Assembly (NCBI RefSeq): GCF_022748595.1 | Contig: NZ_JALDSX010000003.1 | Coordinates: 1 to 64,000, forward strand | Origin: Brevibacterium sp. ZH18 | GTDB lineage: Bacteria > Actinomycetota > Actinomycetes > Actinomycetales > Brevibacteriaceae | Direction of reading: 5' to 3' | Length of the DNA: 64,000 nt | Program-made: the position numbers and the translations under genes | Notes under the pieces: model-generated | Told to the model about the DNA's origin: nothing | The model's input: only the letters and a program-made list of their open reading frames with translations | Database searches by the model: none | In this document: positions 38,864 through 51,703 of the stretch, in pieces | Numbering within the stretch: the stretch's first letter is position 1 | Layout: each line of letters begins with the position of its first letter

Positions 38864-38934
38864 CAGCCCCCGCTGGCTTACTGATGTTCGGCCCACATAT
38901 TGATGTGGGTCCGATCATCAGAAGGGCGGGGGCT
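38864..38934. terminator. Extended bidirectional hairpin between thiolase and HNH genes
   Basis: Nested inverted repeats: AGCCCCCGC (38864-38872) with GCGGGGGCT (38926-38934), CTGAT with ATCAG, and CCCACAT with ATGTGGG around a 4-nt loop. The HNH gene's stop codon (38918-38920) lies inside the structure. It serves convergent genes. Confidence 0.65.
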
Positions 38935-41845
38935 CTCCTGTGTCCCAGAACCATTCCTTAGGGATCGAAGTGCGGGTGTTAGAACCTGAGGTGTTAGAAC
39001 TTGAGGTGTTGGAACTTGAGTCTTTCGAACCCGCGGGGCCAGTAGCTGAAGCATTTGAGTCCGGACTGTCTGAGCCGGAATCATCAGGCGCGAAATTGCC
39101 TGTACTCACATTGCCCGGTTGGATATTTTCTGAACCAGGGGCGTCTGAACCTGGGGCGTCTGAACTTGGGGCGTCTGGATCGGTGTGATCAGGTTCAGTG
39201 CTGTCGGCGAACGGGTCAACGTATTCGCACCATCCGGGGCGGCCATCTTCGGCAGCGGGCTCGGGACATGAGCGCGCTCGCTTCCTCTGTCCGCTGAAGC
39301 TTTCGTTTCCTGGTTGGGGTGGTGAGTCGGGTGGCGCTGTTGGGACTGTCGGTGAATCGGCCCGCTGTGCGTCGGGGGATGGAGACTCACTTGAGGATGT
39401 TTTCTGCGATGCTGCAGCTGGCATTGTTGCAGCTTCAGCAAAGTATTTGAGGAAGAGTCGTGCGTGCTCGACGTTGATCGGGTTGTCGGGAGCGAGTACC
39501 TCAGCGGTGATGCCGTGTCGAAAGACGTACTCAAGTCGCCCCGGATCCGTCATTGTCACTGAAAATCGGTTGTCTGTCTTCGCCTGGTGGTGGAGTTTGC
39601 ACAGGCTGTGAAGATTGCCGAAGCGGGTAAGTCCGCCATGGTCAGGCTCGTCGTGGTTGAACGGTTCGATGTGATCGACTTCAGAAGTCTCTGCACGCCT
39701 GGTGCAACCGGGCACAGTGCAGGTGAGCCACTGGGCGGTGAGTGTCTGACGGACAGATCGTGGAATCGTATAGCTGGTTGCCTTCGCATCGAGTGGCGTT
39801 CCAGTTGCAGGATCGGTGAGGATCCTGGTCCACGTTGACGAATATCCCGCGAGTCTGCGTGCCATGTCGGCGGGGAGTGGGGAGCCGTCCGGCAGCATTC
39901 CGGCGAGGTCGCATACATTTGCCGATGAACCTTCGCCGGCTGAGCGTGGCTGCCGAGATTGTGTCTTCGCTTGAGACGCACCGGTGCCCTGGGTCGTGGC
40001 GTCTTCACTGCTGTGAGCGTCTTCGCTCGGTTGCCGATCCGGGGCGACTCCCTCCACGTCGCAAGCAGGATTGCTGATGCCGCCGGCACCTGGTTGTCCG
40101 AGATATTGGTTCAACATGGTCAGCATCGGAACGGTAATGGTCGTCCGGGCCTGCTCGGCCAGCCAGTATTCGCCAGTGGGCATCTCAAGGAGCATTTCGT
40201 AGGTGACTGAACTCGGTGAATTGCCGTCCCGATCCGCCGGCTCGGACTTGAAGTCGTTGCCGAATGCGCCGCTGGGTCTGGTGCTGCTGTTCAAGAGTGC
40301 GTTAGTCAGGCGCGCATTGTGGGGCCAGGCGAATTTGGTATCGGACTGTTCCTTATCTGGCTGGTCCTCTGACGGCTGGGCCGGAAGCGGTTGGTCTTCG
40401 TGCGGCTGGGCCGGAGGCGACTGGTCTTCGGGCGGCTGGTCCTCTGACGGCTGGGCCTGATTTGAGGGTTCCGTAGTACAGGTGCCTGCGTTCTTCGCCG
40501 ACTGCTCTTCGAAATTCTGCGCTTTGGAATTCTGCTCCTCAGGCATCTTTCCGAAGGTGCGGTCGATGAAGTCGAGTAGAGAATCCGCATCTGACGTTGG
40601 TACCCCGTCGGGGCGCACGAAGAACTCGTCGATGGGGAAGTCTGTGGTCGACGTGCCACCGGTCGATGTGTTGTGGCTGGTGACTCGAAGCTTCAACTGT
40701 GGGCGAGTTCGGGTGAGGATGTCGAACATCAGGGCATCGATGCCACGAGTATCTTCGAAATCGTCGCCAGGGTTGAGCTGGTCGCCGAAGGCCGCGGTGT
40801 TGCCTTTGTATACAGCGCGAGCGAAGGCTTCAATTCTTCTGTAGCAGGCATGGAGCTCGGGAGCGGGACCTGTCAGGGTCAGATACGAGGTGCCGTCGTC
40901 GCCGGTGCTGATATCCACTCGGCGGCGAACCGACACCTTTTCGAGCGTCTCAACAGCTGGCTGGGTTGCCGCGATCTTGAGTGCGAGCGACCGTTTGAAG
41001 GTGTCGATCGTAATGTCGGCGCGTCGGTTGGCTAGGTAGTCGTCGATTGTCGGCAGGTATTTGAATTCGACATCGCGGCAACGTCGGGTCACGAATATGA
41101 CGTGTTCGATGGTGAAGTCGCCGTCGATGCAGCGTTGGTGGAACTGGGGAAGTCCGTGGACGAGTGTCATCGCGGAGGTGATGTGCTTGTACGTACCGGC
41201 AGTCGTGGCGCCGAGGAGAGTTGAGTATTCACTGATGTCGTCCGGCATCGCGAATTGATGCGTCCACCCGTTGAAGGTGGAGTTGAGGGCGAAGCCGGGA
41301 AAGTCCGGGAGGGGATCAGGGTTTTCGCGTGACCGTTTCTGCTCGCGACGGAATCGGCGACCTGCGCTGCGATCCTTCTTCCGACCGGATCGGCCCACAT
41401 GCGGTGCGGTGGAGGAAGATCCAGGTGCTTCGTCACCAGCCGTGGACGTCGAATAGTCGACGCTTCCTGTCCATGCGTCTCCAGGTGATTCTCTGTCGGA
41501 GGCTGGTTTCGAATCGCATGTACTAGTCGGCGACTTCTTTCGTCCGGGTTCGCGAGTGCTATGACGTTGAACGGTCTCTGCGAGCGAAGCGAAGTCGTAG
41601 GCTTCGTCCAAATCAGGGCTGGCGAGGCCGAGATAATGGACGACTTCCCTGGCGAAGATTCCGCTTGTCGCGGCAAGAGCGGCAATCTGTGCTCGGTCGC
41701 TGTGCGTGTAGATGGATAGAAGGTCGGCAAGCGGAGAATCATCGGCGAGTTCAAGTCCGCGTCCACTGGACGAAGATGGGTTGGTGGAATCGGCATGCGG
41801 TTGGGACCAGCTGTTTCCGACGGTGCTGTCGTCGATGAGTTTCAT
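38918..41845 (-). CDS. DUF222 / HNH endonuclease-family protein, very long
   Basis: A 975-residue protein with a DUF222-like N-terminal half and an HNH motif (CTVPGCTRRAETSEVDHIEPF, then NLHSLCKLHHQAKT) around residues 740-785. This is the '13E12 repeat' family, multicopy in many actinobacteria and of unknown role. Most members are 400-600 residues; here length comes from low-complexity inserts: a Pro/Gln/Glu/Asp repeat (EDQPPEDQSPP type, about 500-545) and a C-terminal Ser/Asp/Asn repeat region. The start is ATG at 41845 with AAGGAGG upstream. A TATAAT promoter and an AT-rich patch precede it, which may mark mobile ancestry. Confidence 0.82.
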   Translation of the reverse strand: MKLIDDSTVGNSWSQPHADSTNPSSSSGRGLELADDSPLADLLSIYTHSDRAQIAALAATSGIFAREVVHYLGLASPDLDEAYDFASLAETVQRHSTREPGRKKSPTSTCDSKPASDRESPGDAWTGSVDYSTSTAGDEAPGSSSTAPHVGRSGRKKDRSAGRRFRREQKRSRENPDPLPDFPGFALNSTFNGWTHQFAMPDDISEYSTLLGATTAGTYKHITSAMTLVHGLPQFHQRCIDGDFTIEHVIFVTRRCRDVEFKYLPTIDDYLANRRADITIDTFKRSLALKIAATQPAVETLEKVSVRRRVDISTGDDGTSYLTLTGPAPELHACYRRIEAFARAVYKGNTAAFGDQLNPGDDFEDTRGIDALMFDILTRTRPQLKLRVTSHNTSTGGTSTTDFPIDEFFVRPDGVPTSDADSLLDFIDRTFGKMPEEQNSKAQNFEEQSAKNAGTCTTEPSNQAQPSEDQPPEDQSPPAQPHEDQPLPAQPSEDQPDKEQSDTKFAWPHNARLTNALLNSSTRPSGAFGNDFKSEPADRDGNSPSSVTYEMLLEMPTGEYWLAEQARTTITVPMLTMLNQYLGQPGAGGISNPACDVEGVAPDRQPSEDAHSSEDATTQGTGASQAKTQSRQPRSAGEGSSANVCDLAGMLPDGSPLPADMARRLAGYSSTWTRILTDPATGTPLDAKATSYTIPRSVRQTLTAQWLTCTVPGCTRRAETSEVDHIEPFNHDEPDHGGLTRFGNLHSLCKLHHQAKTDNRFSVTMTDPGRLEYVFRHGITAEVLAPDNPINVEHARLFLKYFAEAATMPAAASQKTSSSESPSPDAQRADSPTVPTAPPDSPPQPGNESFSGQRKRARSCPEPAAEDGRPGWCEYVDPFADSTEPDHTDPDAPSSDAPGSDAPGSENIQPGNVSTGNFAPDDSGSDSPDSNASATGPAGSKDSSSNTSSSNTSGSNTRTSIPKEWFWDTGEPPPF

Positions 41846-41895
41846 GGTGCCGCCTCCTTTCCACTGGACTGCGGGATCACTTCGGTGTGATGGTG

Positions 41896-42120
41896 TCTCT
41901 CTCAATTATACTGCTGAGAGGGACGGAAAGATATAGAAATATGATTAAATATAGAACAGAACTAGGTCAAGCGATCAAATAATAAAAGCCATATTCTGCG
42001 GATGGATGAAGAATGATGGTAGTGGACCATCGTAGATACGAAATCTATTCGTTTACGGTGTTATCGTCTCATTCGCCACTGACACGAGACGTGTTTTTTG
42101 TGGTGCCTGTTTTTGAGATG
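41896..42120. other. AT-rich intergenic patch
   Basis: About 225 nt of visibly AT-rich sequence (runs such as AAGATATAGAAATATGATTA and CAAATAATAAAAG), in strong contrast to the GC-rich surroundings. No gene, tRNA or clear insertion-element end is seen. It separates the HNH gene from the minisatellite before the MATE gene. Confidence 0.7.
41905..41910 (-). promoter_or_regulatory. -10 element (TATAAT) of the HNH gene
   Basis: A perfect TATAAT on the minus strand gives a start near 41898 and a leader of about 53 nt containing AAGGAGG. The -35 region (TATCTT or nearby) is weak. Confidence 0.45.
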
Positions 42121-42567: not shown

Positions 42568-43884
42568 GTGGCATCGATCAATAAGGACATTCTCCGACTG
42601 GCGCTCCCGGCTCTCGGAGCCCTGATTGCCGAACCCATTTTCCTCCTGTCTGACACGGCCATGGTCGGCCACCTCGGTGCTGGTGCCCTTGGTTCGCTCG
42701 CCATCGCATCGACGATCCTGCAGACCGTGCTGGGGTTGATGATCTTCCTCGCCTATGCGACGACTCCGCGGGTGGCCAAGCACATGGGTGCCGGGGACCG
42801 CCCGGGTGCGATCAATGCCGGGTTCGACGGGATCTGGCTGGCGCTCTGCACGTCTGTGGTTCTGCTTGTGGTGGGACTGCCGCTCCTCAGACCGCTCATC
42901 GCTGCCTTCGACCCCAGCGCCGAGATCGCGGCTGGAGCCCATTCCTATCTGGCGATATCGTGGTGGGGGCTACCCTTCATGCTGGTCGTCATCGCCGCCA
43001 CAGGCCTGCTGCGTGGACTTCAGGACACGCGCACGCCTCTGATCGTCGCGGCCGCCGGCTGCATCGCCAACATCGGCCTCAACGCGTTCTTCATCTACGG
43101 CCTCGACATGGGAGTCGCGGGCTCGGCAATCGGTACAGTCATCGCGCAAGCGGGCATGTGCTCTGTGTACGTAGTGATCTCGATCCGCGCGGCGAAGAGA
43201 TTCCACGCCACGTTCCGTCCCGACTGGTCAGGGGTTCTCGCCTCCGCGAAGACGTCGGGTTGGCTCCTCGTCCGCAACGCCTCGCTGCGCGCCGCGCTCA
43301 TCATCCTCGTCTTCCTCGCCACAGCAATGGGCACGACCGAGCTTGCCGCGATCCAAGTTGCCCAGAGCATCTTCTTCGCGCTGGCGCTCGCCCTGGATTC
43401 GCTGGCCATCGCGGGTCAGGCCATGATCGGCTTGCAGCTGGGAGCGAAGAACGCGGACTCGGTCTCCGCGATCAATCGACGCCTGTGCATTTGGGGCATC
43501 GGCTTCGGGGTCGTCGTGGGACTGATGCTCTTCGCGGGCGCCGGAATCATCCCGCGCGCGTTCTCATCGGACCCCGCCGTCGTCGCAATGCTGGCCGGTC
43601 TCCTGCCGGTGCTCGCGCTGAGCATGCCGCTGGCAGGTTATGTATTCGTCCTCGACGGAGTCCTCATGGGAGCCGAGGACGCGCGGTACCTCGCTCTGGC
43701 ACAATTGTTTGCTGTAGGCGGGTATGCGATCCTGCTGGTTCCGATCATCGCCTTCTGGCCGGGTGCCTTGGGGCTCTGGGCGGCGTTCTGCATCGGGTTC
43801 GTCGGGCTCCGGGCCCTGACTCTGGGATGGCGGGTTCGCAACCGAGGCTGGATCGATCGCGCGGTCGAGAAAGGAATCTCATGA
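42568..43884 (+). CDS. MATE-family efflux transporter (DinF-like)
   Basis: A 438-residue polytopic protein with about 12 hydrophobic segments and family patterns (LALPALGALIAEPIFLLSDTAMVGHLG; QDTRTPLIVAAAGCIANIGLNAFFIYGL). It exports cationic drugs or metabolites using Na+ or H+. The GTG start appears leaderless. The stop overlaps the GNAT gene's ATG, so the two are co-translated. Substrate unknown. Confidence 0.88.
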   Translation: MASINKDILRLALPALGALIAEPIFLLSDTAMVGHLGAGALGSLAIASTILQTVLGLMIFLAYATTPRVAKHMGAGDRPGAINAGFDGIWLALCTSVVLLVVGLPLLRPLIAAFDPSAEIAAGAHSYLAISWWGLPFMLVVIAATGLLRGLQDTRTPLIVAAAGCIANIGLNAFFIYGLDMGVAGSAIGTVIAQAGMCSVYVVISIRAAKRFHATFRPDWSGVLASAKTSGWLLVRNASLRAALIILVFLATAMGTTELAAIQVAQSIFFALALALDSLAIAGQAMIGLQLGAKNADSVSAINRRLCIWGIGFGVVVGLMLFAGAGIIPRAFSSDPAVVAMLAGLLPVLALSMPLAGYVFVLDGVLMGAEDARYLALAQLFAVGGYAILLVPIIAFWPGALGLWAAFCIGFVGLRALTLGWRVRNRGWIDRAVEKGIS

Positions 43885-44699
43885 ACGTCATACGGAACAC
43901 GGACCAGAACGACGATCCGAACCTCGCCGAGGCTGGGGCGCAGTCAGGTGGGGACGGCTCCGCCGAGGCTGGGGCGCAGTCCACCACCGAGGCGGAGGAG
44001 AAGTCCGCCACCTCCGTGGCTGGGGCGCGGTTCGAGCGCGGGACCGGGCTGAGCGCACGTATTCGTCCACTGCGGAACGACGCTTCCGAGGATGTGTTCC
44101 TGCCTTTCCTCGACCTGTGCTTCAACTGGTCGATGGACAAACCCCGTGTTGAAGTCGCCGAACTGCTCGAGCGGGAAGACGCTGGGTTCTACTTCAAGGG
44201 GTGGGGGCGGAACGGGGACATCGCCGTGGCGGCGTATGCTCAAGCTCCCGAACCCCGCAGCGCCGACGAGGGCGACTCCTCAACCGGCATCGTGGGCCTG
44301 GCGTGGCTGAGATTGGCTGAGATCGAGTCTGTGATCGGGAGGTCGTCGAGAGCCAACGAAGGCGCAGGTGCCGACGTACAGGCAGTCCCCAGCGGCCACT
44401 CGGGCACAGACCTCGACAGCAGCACAGGCCAGACCGATGCCGCTCCCTTCACCGGCTACGGATGGGTGGCCGCTGACATTCCGGAGCTCTCGATTGCCGT
44501 GCTTCCCGATCATCAGGGGCAGGGGATCGGCGGCATGCTCCTCGACGTTGTGTGCACCTTGGCGAAGATGAGCGGTTTCCAAGCCGTGAGTCTCTCAGTC
44601 GAAGACGGAAACGGTGCCGCTCGTCTGTATCACGACCACGGATTCGTCTCGGTCGGTCGCAATGCGGACTCGGATATCCTCGTCCGCCGCCTCAGCTGA
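43881..44699 (+). CDS. GNAT-family N-acetyltransferase
   Basis: A 272-residue protein. The first 55 residues are low complexity with AEAGAQS repeated. The acetyltransferase domain follows, with the acetyl-CoA motif LSIAVLPDHQGQGIGGMLLD (about 202-222) and a C-terminal ENGNGAARLYHDHGF-like block. A hydrophilic insertion (about 145-190) lies before the core motif. The ATG overlaps the MATE stop and follows AAAGGA. The substrate is unknown; an exporter-acetyltransferase pair suggests detoxification. Confidence 0.78.
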   Translation: MNVIRNTDQNDDPNLAEAGAQSGGDGSAEAGAQSTTEAEEKSATSVAGARFERGTGLSARIRPLRNDASEDVFLPFLDLCFNWSMDKPRVEVAELLEREDAGFYFKGWGRNGDIAVAAYAQAPEPRSADEGDSSTGIVGLAWLRLAEIESVIGRSSRANEGAGADVQAVPSGHSGTDLDSSTGQTDAAPFTGYGWVAADIPELSIAVLPDHQGQGIGGMLLDVVCTLAKMSGFQAVSLSVEDGNGAARLYHDHGFVSVGRNADSDILVRRLS

Positions 44700-44746: not shown

Positions 44747-46048
44747 TCAGTCAGCGAGCTCAGGAAGCTCGAGCTCGAAGAGCCAGGGACGGACCACCTC
44801 GGCGATATCGCGGTCCGCAACGCGGGACACGCATTCGACAAAGTCCGCCGTGTCCACGGAGGAGTGGCGATGCGTGGCGGTCCATTCGCCGATCGCAGCG
44901 AAGAACGCTTCGTCCCCGATCTCCTGCCGGAGCGCGTGCAGGCACAGGGCACCGCGCTTGTAGACCCGGTCGTCGAACATATCGGGCCCGCCCGGATCGC
45001 CCAACAGGATGTCCTGCGGCTCGCCGGCCAGAGCCTCCCGCCAATTCAGAGCGCACTCGTGGGCGCTGATCCGCCCGGAAGCCTCGGACCACAGCCACTC
45101 TGCGTAGCAGGCGAAGCCCTCGTTGAGCCAGATGTCCGACCAGCGCCGAGGTGTCAGCGAGTTCCCGAACCACTGATGGGCCATCTCGTGGGCGACGAGG
45201 CGCTCAGCCTCCCATTCCGTGCCCAAATGGTTGGGCCCGAGAACTGACAGCGGCTGCGACTCGAGCGGGATCTCAAGCTCGTCGTCGGTGACAACCACGT
45301 CGTAGACCTCGAAGGGATACGGTCCGAAACGTTCGATAAACAGGTTCATCATGGCGTGCTGAACCCGCAACCGGGTCGAGGCCGCACGCCAATGCTCGCC
45401 TGCATACAGACCAAGGGGAACGGGCGATTTCGGGACCCCCGCCTCGGCGGCGATCTGCCCCTGCCGGTAACGGCCGATCTGCACGGTGGCCAGGTACGTG
45501 GCCAGCGGCGTCGTCGATTCGAAGGTCCACGCCGTCCGACCGGCCTTGCGCGTCTTGTCGACGAGCGCCCCGTTGGACACGACGGTGTACTCGGACTCGA
45601 CGAGGACCCGGATGCGGTACTTCGATTTGTCGGAGGGGTGATCATTGCACGGGAACCAAGTCGAGGCCCCGACCGGCTGACCGGCCACGAGCACACCGTC
45701 CTCAAGCTCTTCCCAGCCGACATCGCCCCACGTCCCGATCGCAGGCTGCGGGTTGCCGACGTAGGAGACGTCGATGCGCACCGGCTGGTTCGTCGGCAGG
45801 GTCTCCGTCGTCAGCCGCAGCTTCTTGCCGTGGGTGGAGAACCGGACCTTGCGGCCGTTGACGCTGGCCTTCGTGACCCGCAGGCCGGTCAGATCGAGGA
45901 CGATCGACGTCGTCTCGGCAAGGACGCGACCGGTGAGGACAGCGCGGGCCGAGAGTCGGTTGGGGCCGATGCGGTAGTCGAGATTCAGGTCGTAGTGGTC
46001 GATCGTGAGATCCGGGCTGCCGACACCGGGCGTGTACGGATCAAGCAT
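44747..46048 (-). CDS. M1-family metallopeptidase, coupled to the Pls-like synthetase
   Basis: A 433-residue zinc peptidase with HEMAHQWFGN followed 18 residues later by the Glu of NEGFACYAE, the M1 zinc site. The N-terminal half is the beta-sandwich of M1 enzymes, but the usual GAMEN exopeptidase motif reads differently (LEIPLESQP), so substrate recognition may be unusual. It lacks the long C-terminal domain of classical aminopeptidase N. The ATG at 46048 overlaps the synthetase stop by 8 nt and has GGAG seven bases upstream; an in-frame ATG at 46081 is an alternative start. As I recall, epsilon-poly-lysine-degrading enzymes are Zn aminopeptidases with this signature, so a polymer-cleaving role is likely. 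Confidence 0.85.
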   Translation of the reverse strand: MLDPYTPGVGSPDLTIDHYDLNLDYRIGPNRLSARAVLTGRVLAETTSIVLDLTGLRVTKASVNGRKVRFSTHGKKLRLTTETLPTNQPVRIDVSYVGNPQPAIGTWGDVGWEELEDGVLVAGQPVGASTWFPCNDHPSDKSKYRIRVLVESEYTVVSNGALVDKTRKAGRTAWTFESTTPLATYLATVQIGRYRQGQIAAEAGVPKSPVPLGLYAGEHWRAASTRLRVQHAMMNLFIERFGPYPFEVYDVVVTDDELEIPLESQPLSVLGPNHLGTEWEAERLVAHEMAHQWFGNSLTPRRWSDIWLNEGFACYAEWLWSEASGRISAHECALNWREALAGEPQDILLGDPGGPDMFDDRVYKRGALCLHALRQEIGDEAFFAAIGEWTATHRHSSVDTADFVECVSRVADRDIAEVVRPWLFELELPELAD

Positions 46049-49000
46049 GTCCGCGCTCCGTCGGTGCAGCTTCGACTTCATGTGCCCCGTGGACGGCAGA
46101 AAATTCTGGTGCATCCACCCAGGGTATGACAGGATTGCCGCTGAAATAGGCATGAGCCGGCACGAACTCTCCGCGCATCACCAGCGACGTCGCCCCAACC
46201 GTGGCGTTCGTGCCCAATGTGGACGCCGGCAGGATGACGCTGTTGGGCCCGAGCGTCGAGCCCGACTCCAGCACCACCGTGTCGAGACTCATCACCCGGT
46301 CGTGGAACAGGTGGGTCTGAATCACACAGCCGCGGTTGATCGTCGCATTGTCACCGAGCTCGACGAGGTCGGTCTCCGGCAGCCAGTAGCTCTCACACCA
46401 CACACCGTGGCCGATCTTCGCGCCCATCGCCCGCAGGTACCAGACGATGGCCGGAGTGCCCACAGCATTGCGCGTGAACCACGGGGCCGCGACGAGCTCG
46501 ACGAAGCAGTCGGCCACCTCGTTGCGCCAGATGAACGACGACCACAGAGGATGCTCGCCCGCGCTGATCCGTCCGACGCACACCCACTTCGCGAGCACCG
46601 CGAGGCCTGCGGCCACAGCTCCCGCCGCCATCATCACAATGCCGGAGCTCAGCAGGGCGAGAGCGACGGAGGCGAAGAAGGACGTACCGCCGGCTTCGGC
46701 TCCTCCCGGCAGTCCGAGCAGGAACAGAATCGTGAGTATGACTGCGCCCACGAGTCCACCGCCGACCATCACCGAGGTGATGCGCAGGGTCTCGAAGAAC
46801 GCACGGGCCCCACGCACCCGCAGCGACGGTGCGTAGGTCAGAGCCTCGTCGGCAGCGACGGCGGACCGACGCAGCTGGACCGGGGGAGACCCGAGCCACG
46901 ACGAACCCTTCTTCGCCTTCGCCGGGGCGGTCGAGAGCACAGCGACCAGAGCATTCTTCGGCACCCGCCGCCCGGGAGAGGCGATGCCCGAGTTGCCGAG
47001 GAAGGCTCGCTTGCCGACCTTGGCTCGGCCGGCGCGCATCCACCCGTGTCCGAGCTCGTAGCTGGCGACCATCGTGTCGTCGGCGAGGAACGCCCCTGCC
47101 GCGATGGTGGTCATCTTCGGCACGAACACGACCGTCGAGATCTCGGTTCCTGGCCCCACTTTGGCTCCGAGCAGCCGCAGCCACCAAGGGGTGAGCATCG
47201 ACGCGTAGAGGGGGAACAACAGATCGCGGGCAAGATCGAGCAGTCGCTCGGTGGCCCAGACCCGATAGCCGTTGGCCGACCGGACCGGGAACTCACCCTC
47301 CCTCATTCCGAGCGAGAGGATCCGCACCGAGGCCAGGATGAGCAGTGCGGTGACGAAGAACCAGATGCACGCGATGAGCGGCGACCACGCAAGGACGAGC
47401 CACGGAGACTCGAGAACACCCACACCCGAGACCGCGAGCATGAGCAGAAGGCCGGGAAGCGCGGCGAGGTAGGGCAGCGAGGCATTGATCTGAGAGCCGA
47501 GGGCGTAGAACAGGAACGGCAAGCGACGCCGCGGTGGTGGGGCGGGCCAACTCTTCTTCGCTTTGCCGATCCGCACCGCCGGCGACCCTGAATAGATCTG
47601 GTTGCGGCGCACCTTGCCGGTGACAGCCGAGCCGGCCTCGACGAGCGCACCGGAGCCGATGCGTGCGCCGGGCATGAGCGTTGACCGAGCGCCGACAGTG
47701 GCACCGGCCCCGATCTCGATCGTGCCGATGCGCAGCAGGTCTCCGTCGACCCACCAGCCCTTGAGGTCGACCTCAGGCTCGATGGCCGCACCATCGTCGA
47801 GGGTCAGGAAGCCGGTCACCGGAGGGGCGGAGTGGAGGTCGGCGTCGGGGCCGATCCTGTTTCCGAGCAGTTTCGCGTACCAGGTCACCCAGGGTGCGCT
47901 CGCCACCGATACGGCGGCGGCGAGATCGGCGATGTGCTCGGCCAGCCACAGCCGCTTGTGCACCCATCCCGACCGCGGATAGTCGCCCGGGGTGACCCCG
48001 AGCATGAGCAGACGGGCAGCGAGGGCAGAGATGAGCATCCGGCCCCAGGCCGAGACGAAGACGAGGAACAGCGTGATGATCACGGGCCACGGTGTCGTCG
48101 GCAGGTCCGCACCGAGCCCGGCGCCGAGGTTCGCGAGCACCATGGCGATGACGACCCACCTGACCCCGCCGAGGATGTGGACGGGAATCGCGAGCAGCGT
48201 CTGGAAGATCTGCATCCCCCGAGAGGTCCGCCCGATCGTCCGCCGTGGAGAGGCGGTCGCCGCTGCCCCGTCCTCACGAAGGCACAGTGAGGCCAAAGCG
48301 CCGAAGCGTGGGTGGGCGTAGAGGTCGCCGACGGTGACGCTGGGGTGCTGTGTGCGCAGTCGCGAGACGAGCTGCGCGGCCGCGAGAGATCCGCCGCCGG
48401 CGGTGAAGAAGTCGGTGTTGGATCGGGGTGCTGTGCCGAGGATCGACGCCCATTGCTCGGCGATCCACGAGGTGGCCGGATCGAAGCTCTCGGCAGATTT
48501 TCCTCCGGCAGCGGCTGCAGCGTCATCATCAGCGGCCGCGTCGGACGTCGGCCAGGGCAGAGCATTGCGGTCGACCTTGCCGGAGGTCTTCGTCGGCAGC
48601 TCGTCGATGAGCGTCAGCCGCGGCACAAGGGCCGCGGGAAGTTCGGCGCGCAGCGACTTCTCCCAGCCCGCGATCCGATCTTGAGCGTCACCAATGCTCG
48701 TGGAGATGTAGCCGATGAGCAGGTCCATGCCGCCCGGGGTCGTCTTGACTGCGGCGGCGGCCCCTTCGACGCCGGGCAGCGCCTGGAGTGCGGCGTCGAT
48801 CTCGCCGAGTTCGATCCGTCGCCCACCGAGCTTGATCTGCTCATCGGCACGTCCGACGAAGATGAGCCCGGCCGGATCGGAGATGACGAGGTCGCCGGAC
48901 CGGTAGGCACGATCCCAGCCGAGGGTCGGCATCGGCGCGTACTTCTCGGCGTCCTTAGCCGGGTCGAGGTAGCGGGCCAGGCCGATGCCCCCGATGATGA

Positions 49001-50024
49001 GCTCTCCGGTCTCACCGTCGGCGACCGGGATGCCCTCGCCGTCGACGACGGCCAGTGACCAGCCGGCCAACGGCAGGCCGATCCGAACCGGCTCCGATCC
49101 GTCCAAGCGTGCACCGCAGGCCACAACGGTCGCCTCGGTGGGGCCGTAGGTGTTCCAGACCTCGCGTCCTTCGTCGCTGAGCCGGCGGCCAAGCTCAGGA
49201 GGGCAGGCTTCGCCGCCGAAGATGAGGAGGCGAACGGCGTCGAGGCTCTCCGCCGGCCACAGGGCCGCCAGCGTCGGGACCGTCGAGACCACGGTGATGC
49301 CTCGCGAAGACAGCCACGGGCCGAGGTCCATGCCCGACTTCACGAGCGCACGCGGGGCCGGGACGAGGCACGCGCCATGACGCCAGGCCAGCCACATCTC
49401 CTCGCAGCTCGCGTCGAAGGCTACGGACAGGCCTGCGAGGACGCGGTCCCCGGGACCCAGCGGCTCCTCCTGACAGAACAGGACCGCCTCGGCGTCGACG
49501 AAGGCCGCAGCGGAACGATGGGAGACGGCCACACCCTTGGGTGTGCCGGTCGATCCGGAAGTGAAGATCACCCAGGCGTCGTCGTCGGGGGCAGGTCGGC
49601 GCAGTGCGGAACGATCGAGCGGGCCCCTGTGGTTGCGAGCTTCGATCGCACGGTCGGCGGTGACGATTCCGGCCACAGCCGCCTCGGTGAAGACCGTCGC
49701 AGCTCGCTCCTCGGGATCGTCGACGTCGACGGGGACGTAGGCGGCCCCGACCATCATGGTCGCCAGGATCGACACGTAGAGGTCGACCGAGCCCGAGGGC
49801 ACCCTGATGCCCACCTTGTCACCGGGGCCGATGCCCGCCTCGGCCAGCTGCAGGGCCATGCTGCGGATCTCTGTGATGAGTTCCGAATAGCTGAGGACCG
49901 TGCGTCCGTCATCGAGCGCGGGCTGATCGCCGTGGGCTCCGGTCGTCTCCAGGAGGAGGTCGATGAGAGTGCGGTCCTCGCGGGGACGGGCGACGGGTGG
50001 GTACTGCGCAGAGTATTCGGTCAC
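46041..50024 (-). CDS. Pls/PosA-type membrane NRPS, predicted cationic homopoly(amino acid) synthetase
   Basis: A 1327-residue single-module NRPS without a classical condensation domain. The adenylation domain (about 1-500) has VIFTSGSTGTPKGVAVSH near 155, YGPTEAT near 293 and TKTSGKVDRNALP with Lys483. The carrier domain has FFTAGGGSLAAAQL with Ser546. From about 605 to the end, three homologous units each pair membrane helices with a W-x5-G-x-[RK]-[IV]-G element and a left-handed-helix-like repeat. This A-T-(TM-C)x3 plan and length match epsilon-poly-L-lysine synthetase (about 1319 residues) and PosA. Hand-read specificity residues D204 A205 E208 S247 I268 G270 T292 V300 V301 K483 resemble lysine codes. 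The start is GTG with GGAAAG upstream; translation is coupled to the M1 peptidase. Product unproven. Confidence 0.88.
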   Translation of the reverse strand: MTEYSAQYPPVARPREDRTLIDLLLETTGAHGDQPALDDGRTVLSYSELITEIRSMALQLAEAGIGPGDKVGIRVPSGSVDLYVSILATMMVGAAYVPVDVDDPEERAATVFTEAAVAGIVTADRAIEARNHRGPLDRSALRRPAPDDDAWVIFTSGSTGTPKGVAVSHRSAAAFVDAEAVLFCQEEPLGPGDRVLAGLSVAFDASCEEMWLAWRHGACLVPAPRALVKSGMDLGPWLSSRGITVVSTVPTLAALWPAESLDAVRLLIFGGEACPPELGRRLSDEGREVWNTYGPTEATVVACGARLDGSEPVRIGLPLAGWSLAVVDGEGIPVADGETGELIIGGIGLARYLDPAKDAEKYAPMPTLGWDRAYRSGDLVISDPAGLIFVGRADEQIKLGGRRIELGEIDAALQALPGVEGAAAAVKTTPGGMDLLIGYISTSIGDAQDRIAGWEKSLRAELPAALVPRLTLIDELPTKTSGKVDRNALPWPTSDAAADDDAAAAAGGKSAESFDPATSWIAEQWASILGTAPRSNTDFFTAGGGSLAAAQLVSRLRTQHPSVTVGDLYAHPRFGALASLCLREDGAAATASPRRTIGRTSRGMQIFQTLLAIPVHILGGVRWVVIAMVLANLGAGLGADLPTTPWPVIITLFLVFVSAWGRMLISALAARLLMLGVTPGDYPRSGWVHKRLWLAEHIADLAAAVSVASAPWVTWYAKLLGNRIGPDADLHSAPPVTGFLTLDDGAAIEPEVDLKGWWVDGDLLRIGTIEIGAGATVGARSTLMPGARIGSGALVEAGSAVTGKVRRNQIYSGSPAVRIGKAKKSWPAPPPRRRLPFLFYALGSQINASLPYLAALPGLLLMLAVSGVGVLESPWLVLAWSPLIACIWFFVTALLILASVRILSLGMREGEFPVRSANGYRVWATERLLDLARDLLFPLYASMLTPWWLRLLGAKVGPGTEISTVVFVPKMTTIAAGAFLADDTMVASYELGHGWMRAGRAKVGKRAFLGNSGIASPGRRVPKNALVAVLSTAPAKAKKGSSWLGSPPVQLRRSAVAADEALTYAPSLRVRGARAFFETLRITSVMVGGGLVGAVILTILFLLGLPGGAEAGGTSFFASVALALLSSGIVMMAAGAVAAGLAVLAKWVCVGRISAGEHPLWSSFIWRNEVADCFVELVAAPWFTRNAVGTPAIVWYLRAMGAKIGHGVWCESYWLPETDLVELGDNATINRGCVIQTHLFHDRVMSLDTVVLESGSTLGPNSVILPASTLGTNATVGATSLVMRGEFVPAHAYFSGNPVIPWVDAPEFSAVHGAHEVEAAPTERGHA

Positions 50025-50049
50025 TGGACTTTCCGGGTAGAGCGAAGGA

Positions 50050-50148
50050 GCTGAGTCGGACAGGTGCTGCTGAGTCGGGCAGACCTGCTGAGCCAGTGGT
50101 CGCTGCCGAGTCGAGCAGGTGCTGCCGAGCAGGACAGGTGTCTGCCGC
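50050..50148. repeat. Short shuffled repeats (GCTGAGTCGG / GAGCAGGTGCTGCC) in the synthetase leader
   Basis: Alternating GAGTCG-, CAGGTGCTGC- and GCTGAG-type motifs repeat four to five times directly upstream of the synthetase start, inside its presumed leader. There is no strict period. No coding signal. Confidence 0.65.
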
Positions 50149-50240
50149 TGGACGACGTCGGAGACGATACGGACTCAAGGTGTCGTGAAGGTGAACAGTT
50201 TCCCGTCGATCTGCCGTTTCGACTTCTGGACATCTTCACT

Positions 50241-50246
50241 ATTCTA
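50241..50246 (-). promoter_or_regulatory. Possible -10 (TAGAAT) for the Pls-like gene
   Basis: TAGAAT on the minus strand within a short AT-richer patch, about 217 nt before the GTG at 50024. The -35 is weak. A leader of about 210 nt would include the repeats at 50050-50148. Confidence 0.33.
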
Positions 50247-50334
50247 TGGAGTTTTCATTATCGTCGTGATCGGGCATGACGTGGCCCCGGTGTCCGTGAT
50301 AGATGTACAACGAGGGCCGGGCATACGTCGCCCA

Positions 50335-50442
50335 GTCGAGTATCACCGACGAGTCGAGTATCACCGATAAGTCGAGTTCCACCGATAAGTCGAGTTCCGC
50401 CCACGAGTCGACTGCCGATGACGGGTCGATTTCCCGATGACA
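50335..50442. repeat. 18-bp tandem repeat, six units
   Basis: GTCGA recurs at 50335, 50353, 50371, 50389, 50407 and 50425, an exact 18-bp period. The first four units are most alike (GTCGAGTATCACCGATAA type) and the last two diverged. It lies between the divergent synthetase and amidohydrolase genes, ending 47 nt before the latter. It could be regulatory iterons, but other gaps in the window hold similar minisatellites. Confidence 0.88.
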
Positions 50443-50488
50443 GACCGGTTCTCAATGACGAGCCGGTCATCACAGATGAGGAGTGCAC

Positions 50489-51703
50489 ATGGTCACAGTG
50501 TTTCAGAATGCGAAAGTCTTCGACGGGGTCCGCTTCCTGCCCGGGCGCCGCGACGTCGTCGTCGACGGGGGAGCGATCGTGGGGGTGACCGAGAGTGGTC
50601 AGGGTTCCCACGATGCCGGCGACACCTATGTCGACTGTACGACGAAGACCCTGATCCCAGGCGTCATCGACTGCCACGTGCACCTGACGAGCGCGGGAGC
50701 GGGCAACACATCGGCTTTCCACGATCCGTTCTCCCTGCAGTTCTACAACTCGGTCGATCACATGGAGCGCACGCTCAAGGGCGGTGTGACCACAGTCCGC
50801 GACGCCGGCGGGACCGACCTCGGCGCAAAGGTCGCAGTCGAGACCGGAGTGATCCGCGGCCCCCGACTGTCCATCGCCGTCAACATCATGTCCCAGACCG
50901 GTGGACACGGTGACTTCCACCTGGTCTCCGGCGCTGAGTCCCCGTTCATGGCTCCCCACCCCGGACGCCCTTCCGGTGTCGCCGACGGGCTCGAAGGAGT
51001 GCAGCGCAAGGTGCGCGAACTCCTCCGTGCAGGAGCAGACCACATCAAGATCTGCTCGACCGGTGGCGTGCTCTCCCCGCGGGACGACCCCAAGCACTCC
51101 CAGTTCACCGAGGCAGAGATCGCCGTCATCGTGTCGGAAGCCTCCTCGCAGGGCGCACACGTGATGTCGCACGCCCAGGGTGCTCCCGGCATCAAGAATG
51201 CCGTCCGTGCCGGTGTCCGCTCGATCGAGCACGGCATCTACCTCGATGACGAAGCCATCGACCTCATGCTCGAACACAAGACGTTCCTGGTCCCGACCCT
51301 GCAGGCTCCGCAAGCCGTGATCAAGGCCGCCGAGGCGGGTGCCTCCCTGCCGCAGTCCGTGGTCGACAAGGCGCACTCGGTGATCGAAGCGCACTATTCG
51401 TCGATCTCGAAGGCTCACGAGGCCGGCGTCAAGATCGCGATGGGCACCGATGCCGGAGTCGGCCCGCACGGCGAGAATCTTGAGGAGATCAGCCTGCTGG
51501 CCGGGGTCGGCCTGTCGACGACCGAAGCGCTCGCCGCCGGCACCTCGGTCGCGGCCGAGTTGCTGGGCCACGACAGTGTCGGCCGCATCGCCGAGGGCGC
51601 GCTCGCCGACCTCGTCCTCATCGACGGCGACCTCAGCACCGAGGATGTCAGAGGAATCGAGAACAAGGTGAGCTCCGTCTACCTCAACGGCGCACTCGTC
51701 TGA
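50489..51703 (+). CDS. Metal-dependent amidohydrolase (imidazolonepropionase/dipeptidase-like)
   Basis: A 404-residue amidohydrolase-superfamily protein. It has the metal-ligand motif DCHVHL, the Lys in HIKICSTGGV that would be carboxylated, HAQG and SIEHGIYLDDE His motifs, and the catalytic Asp in GTDAG. It resembles the group that includes Xaa-Pro and Xaa-Arg/Lys dipeptidases. The ATG at 50489 has GAGGAG five bases upstream. It is divergent from the Pls-like synthetase, so cleavage of short basic peptides is attractive but unproven; other N-acyl or cyclic amide substrates are possible. Confidence 0.82.
   Translation: MVTVFQNAKVFDGVRFLPGRRDVVVDGGAIVGVTESGQGSHDAGDTYVDCTTKTLIPGVIDCHVHLTSAGAGNTSAFHDPFSLQFYNSVDHMERTLKGGVTTVRDAGGTDLGAKVAVETGVIRGPRLSIAVNIMSQTGGHGDFHLVSGAESPFMAPHPGRPSGVADGLEGVQRKVRELLRAGADHIKICSTGGVLSPRDDPKHSQFTEAEIAVIVSEASSQGAHVMSHAQGAPGIKNAVRAGVRSIEHGIYLDDEAIDLMLEHKTFLVPTLQAPQAVIKAAEAGASLPQSVVDKAHSVIEAHYSSISKAHEAGVKIAMGTDAGVGPHGENLEEISLLAGVGLSTTEALAAGTSVAAELLGHDSVGRIAEGALADLVLIDGDLSTEDVRGIENKVSSVYLNGALV

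Follow-up and report, generated by a model that had tools for sequence, protein, structure and literature searches.

The closest described counterpart of the locus analysed here is the ε-poly-L-lysine synthetase Pls of Streptomyces albulus, together with the translationally coupled PldII, which is the main ε-poly-lysine-degrading enzyme of that organism and whose repression alters chain length and tolerance (PMC9223678). For coryneform bacteria, Brevibacterium included, Jiang et al. 2021 noted a pls operon with a peptidase gene; pls was found in 14 of 15 Brevibacterium isolates, and the coryneform Pls proteins had substrate pockets that matched those of confirmed Pls enzymes fully or very closely (PMC8117764). 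The Pls of C. variabile was confirmed through expression in S. coelicolor, where ε-poly-lysine was made; in C. variabile itself no polymer was detectable under the tested conditions (PMC8117764). The δ-poly-L-ornithine synthetase PosA of Acinetobacter baumannii belongs to the same NCBIfam family and shares its architecture (PMC10522769). The second pocket position has been assigned to the substrate, with Ala standing for lysine, Met for ornithine, and Phe for diaminopropionate or diaminobutyrate (PMC10522769).

The window, a stretch of 64,000 nucleotides from Brevibacterium sp. ZH18, carries what we consider, with a probability of about 0.93, to be the ordinary pls-pldII operon of Brevibacterium, predicted to serve the synthesis of antimicrobial ε-poly-L-lysine and equipped with the accompanying peptidase. 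An initial annotation had correctly placed three open reading frames, namely a synthetase (46041–50024, minus strand), a peptidase (44747–46153, minus strand) and an amidohydrolase (50483–51703, plus strand), and had considered the predicted polymer possibly new for the genus. This last suggestion does not hold in view of the isolates cited above and of our own survey, in which a synthetase gene scoring above the TIGR02353 family cut-off was present in 44 of 57 Brevibacterium species (one genome each). The two-gene unit of pls and peptidase is already known from the literature and is common in Brevibacterium and in many other actinobacteria; the pair in the window shows no notable difference from that of C. 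variabile and the Brevibacterium homologues described by Jiang et al. 2021 (PMC8117764). The locus leaves knowledge of ε-poly-lysine and of Brevibacterium unchanged, and illustrates how an NRPS-like protein was correctly read from raw sequence.

The pls gene starts with GTG and encodes a protein of 1327 aa that matches TIGR02353 ('Pls/PosA family non-ribosomal peptide synthetase', NCBIfam) with 642.9 bits, compared with a curated cut-off of 423.1 bits; the match, which lies in the C-terminal region, covers profile positions 2–695 of 695. In agreement with the initial annotation, Pfam identified one AMP-binding domain and one PP-binding (carrier) domain in A-T order as well as hexapeptide matches, and found neither a condensation nor a thioesterase domain in the synthetase. 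The A domain extends over about residues 8–494 and the T domain over about residues 520–580, the latter with an intact serine motif (DFFTAGGGS at residue 538). The C-terminal membrane/acyltransferase-like region (residues 607–1299) consists of three acyltransferase-like units in tandem, which are separated by helix pairs. Hydropathy predicts six membrane helices arranged as three pairs (611–629/648–666, 853–871/882–900 and 1085–1103/1120–1138), and the element W-x5-G-x-[RK]-[IV]-G, noted in the initial annotation, occurs three times (residues 715, 947 and 1195). An AlphaFold model of residues 590–1310 (pLDDT 80, pTM 0.85) likewise has membrane-type helices alternating with three β-rich units, which appear weakly similar to hexapeptide acyltransferases. 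When the C-terminal model was compared with the PDB by Foldseek, no match with E < 0.001 was obtained; the weak matches (best E 0.026) came for the most part from hexapeptide acyltransferases, among them acetyltransferases acting on serine, maltose and galactosides. The model thus adds a fold class for this region but no closer relative, and the fold class agrees with the description of the C1–C3 domains of Pls as acetyltransferase-related (PMC8117764).

The best PDB sequence match of the synthetase (phmmer) is 7wew, the A domain of S. albulus Pls, with 643 bits and 67% identity across 468 aligned residues. By contrast, the PDB chains 8g95–8g98 ('Dimodular nonribosomal peptide synthase'), which we take to be the PosA A domain, reached 200–202 bits. 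The 10-residue substrate pocket of the window synthetase, DAESIGTVVK, equals that of S. albulus Pls at all ten positions, whereas PosA has DMEHNGTVSK; at the second position the window synthetase has Ala and not the Met characteristic of the PosA type. Because the pocket is identical and the A domains are closely similar, the substrate can be named, beyond 'basic', as L-lysine and the predicted product as ε-poly-L-lysine. The isopeptide-linked basic homopolymer foreseen in the initial annotation is thereby supported and, as judged from the pocket, probably narrowed to this one polymer. Ornithine and diaminobutyrate are rejected as substrates on the basis of the pocket with its Ala at the second position. 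DAESIGTVVK was also read in 108 of 109 related synthetases (in the remaining one the pattern could not place one position), a set chosen by similarity to the window protein or as best score in the genus and hence not a sample of the whole family.

Polymerisation by a Pls-family enzyme of a basic amino acid other than L-lysine, be it ornithine, diaminobutyrate, diaminopropionate or β-lysine, has precedents in that such polymers are known from this family (PMC10522769) and that another Brevibacterium species possesses a family member with the deviating pocket DFECLSVVTK. We nevertheless regard it as highly improbable for the window, because all ten pocket residues, including the Ala assigned to lysine, are as in S. 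albulus Pls and because the peptidase partner is of the ε-poly-lysine type, the gene context of the other synthetases having been reported to be different (PMC8117764).

The partner of the synthetase, an M1 peptidase, overlaps pls as initially annotated, yet its start had to be refined. The reading frame is open to 46153, but translation probably begins at an ATG at 46048, which lies behind GGAG and yields a protein of 433 aa (44747–46048, minus strand) whose gene runs into the pls stop codon with an 8-nt overlap (ATGCTTGA). With this likely start, the overlap couples the peptidase translationally to pls. Pfam assigned the domains Peptidase_M1 and Peptidase_M1_N. The zinc site HEMAH-x18-E is present, and residues H322, E323, H326 and E345 are conserved across 80 sequences. 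At the place where the usual M1 motif GxMEN is expected, the pls-linked peptidases (that of the window and 79 aligned ones) mostly show EIP[LIV]E[AS]Q, and it is possibly to isopeptide substrates that this substitution is tied. No obvious signal peptide was seen by eye in the window peptidase; PldII itself is reported to be located outside the membrane.

Each of the 80 related loci has the peptidase gene beside pls on the same strand; in 75 of them the open frame of the peptidase touches the end of pls or starts at most 60 nt from it (this spacing is the open-frame distance, and the DPYxPG motif is absent from most sequences). The nearest loci (81–84% identity) all belong to Brevibacterium. 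Within the genus, 43 of the 44 species that carry a pls-type gene also have the peptidase (counted as present at E < 1e-60), and all 13 species lacking pls lack the peptidase too, although the species are related and the counts hence do not represent independent events. The exception, G054, has as its only synthetase a divergent one, 46% identical to that of the window. S. albulus PldII is likewise a downstream, translationally coupled metallopeptidase, and on the strength of gene context and description we equate the M1 peptidase, by analogy, with a PldII-type polymer-degrading partner of Pls, as had been anticipated.

Taking the characterised Streptomyces and Corynebacterium homologues as a guide, we propose that the A domain of Pls would activate L-lysine as adenylate and load it onto the carrier domain. 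The three tandem membrane-linked acyltransferase-like units would then link the lysines by isopeptide bonds between α-carboxyl and ε-amino groups, a joining that would involve neither a classical C domain nor a TE domain. The resulting ε-poly-L-lysine would be released outward, and the co-translated M1 peptidase would degrade or trim it and might in this way protect the producer. Family, domain order, lysine pocket and translational coupling, which the window strain shares with S. albulus, a member of another genus, are shown by the sequences, as is the co-occurrence of the two genes.

Since no polymer could be detected in C. variabile itself under the conditions tested, pls in the window may be silent. 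An intact pls whose product works at the cell surface instead of being exported as an antimicrobial, or is not made, would fit the C. variabile findings, where the Pls protein also went undetected (PMC8117764). This seems unlikely to us because the open frame and motifs are retained in more than 100 pls loci and a degrading partner is present in 43 Brevibacterium species. Even less probable is that the enzyme makes ε-poly-lysine chains of atypical length, or that the polymer has a surface or ecological function different from the one in Streptomyces, the peptidase determining how long the chains become; nothing points in this direction. An exported ε-poly-L-lysine accompanied by its peptidase remains the preferred reading.

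Several other Brevibacterium genomes harbor further members of the family. G053, G044 and G054 (loci L114, L115 and L116, respectively) each have a divergent Pls-like synthetase that shares about 46% identity with that of the window. Their pockets read DAESIGSVIK or DAESIGTVIK, the copy in L115 is broken by TGA, and no M1 peptidase was found near them in the 10–12 kb fetched. Another species, G008, carries besides its ordinary pls a second synthetase of the Pls family (1523 aa; L113, 904–5475 in G008:C1:14000-23000) with about 220 extra N-terminal residues. Its pocket, DFECLSVVTK, shows the second-position Phe of diaminopropionate and diaminobutyrate synthetases. Downstream, its gene overlaps that of an HGSNAT-type acyltransferase, and a gene for an M28 peptidase comes next. 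The product of this second synthetase may be a different basic polymer.

On the other side of pls, and divergent from it, lies the gene for a Xaa-Pro-dipeptidase-like amidohydrolase (NF051886, 291.7 bits, below the cut-off of 500). The two genes are separated by a gap of 458 bp (50025–50482) with a G+C content of 58% compared to 64% for the window, which is the probable site of the pls promoter. The initial annotation had counted the amidohydrolase as part of the locus. A three-gene system in which this enzyme also processes the polymer could be conceived from its divergent position beside pls in close Brevibacterium relatives; we give it next to no credence, because only six of the 78 loci whose upstream sequence reached far enough have it next to pls, every one of them in Brevibacterium, and because it occurs in 11 of the 13 pls-less Brevibacterium genomes. 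Four of these genomes were fetched (G016, G017, G021 and G041); in each, the amidohydrolase gene directly adjoins the GNAT and MATE genes, and neither pls nor the peptidase was found at that site. The three-gene arrangement is contradicted by this empty-site comparison; the unit consists of pls and peptidase, and the amidohydrolase is a neighbor by local synteny, outside the pls system. Genus-wide, pls and peptidase form a two-gene unit that is gained or lost as a whole and lies between the amidohydrolase on one side and the GNAT/MATE genes on the other.

In the window, the genes for the MATE transporter and the GNAT acetyltransferase (42568–44699) lie next to the peptidase on the other flank of the locus. 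As they are kept in pls-less genomes, they are probably unconnected with the polymer. Farther along, at 38918–41905, there is an open reading frame of 995 aa that resembles DUF222 weakly, scoring under the Pfam cut-off; its position is conserved in the genus while its sequence is variable, with identities of 43–65%.
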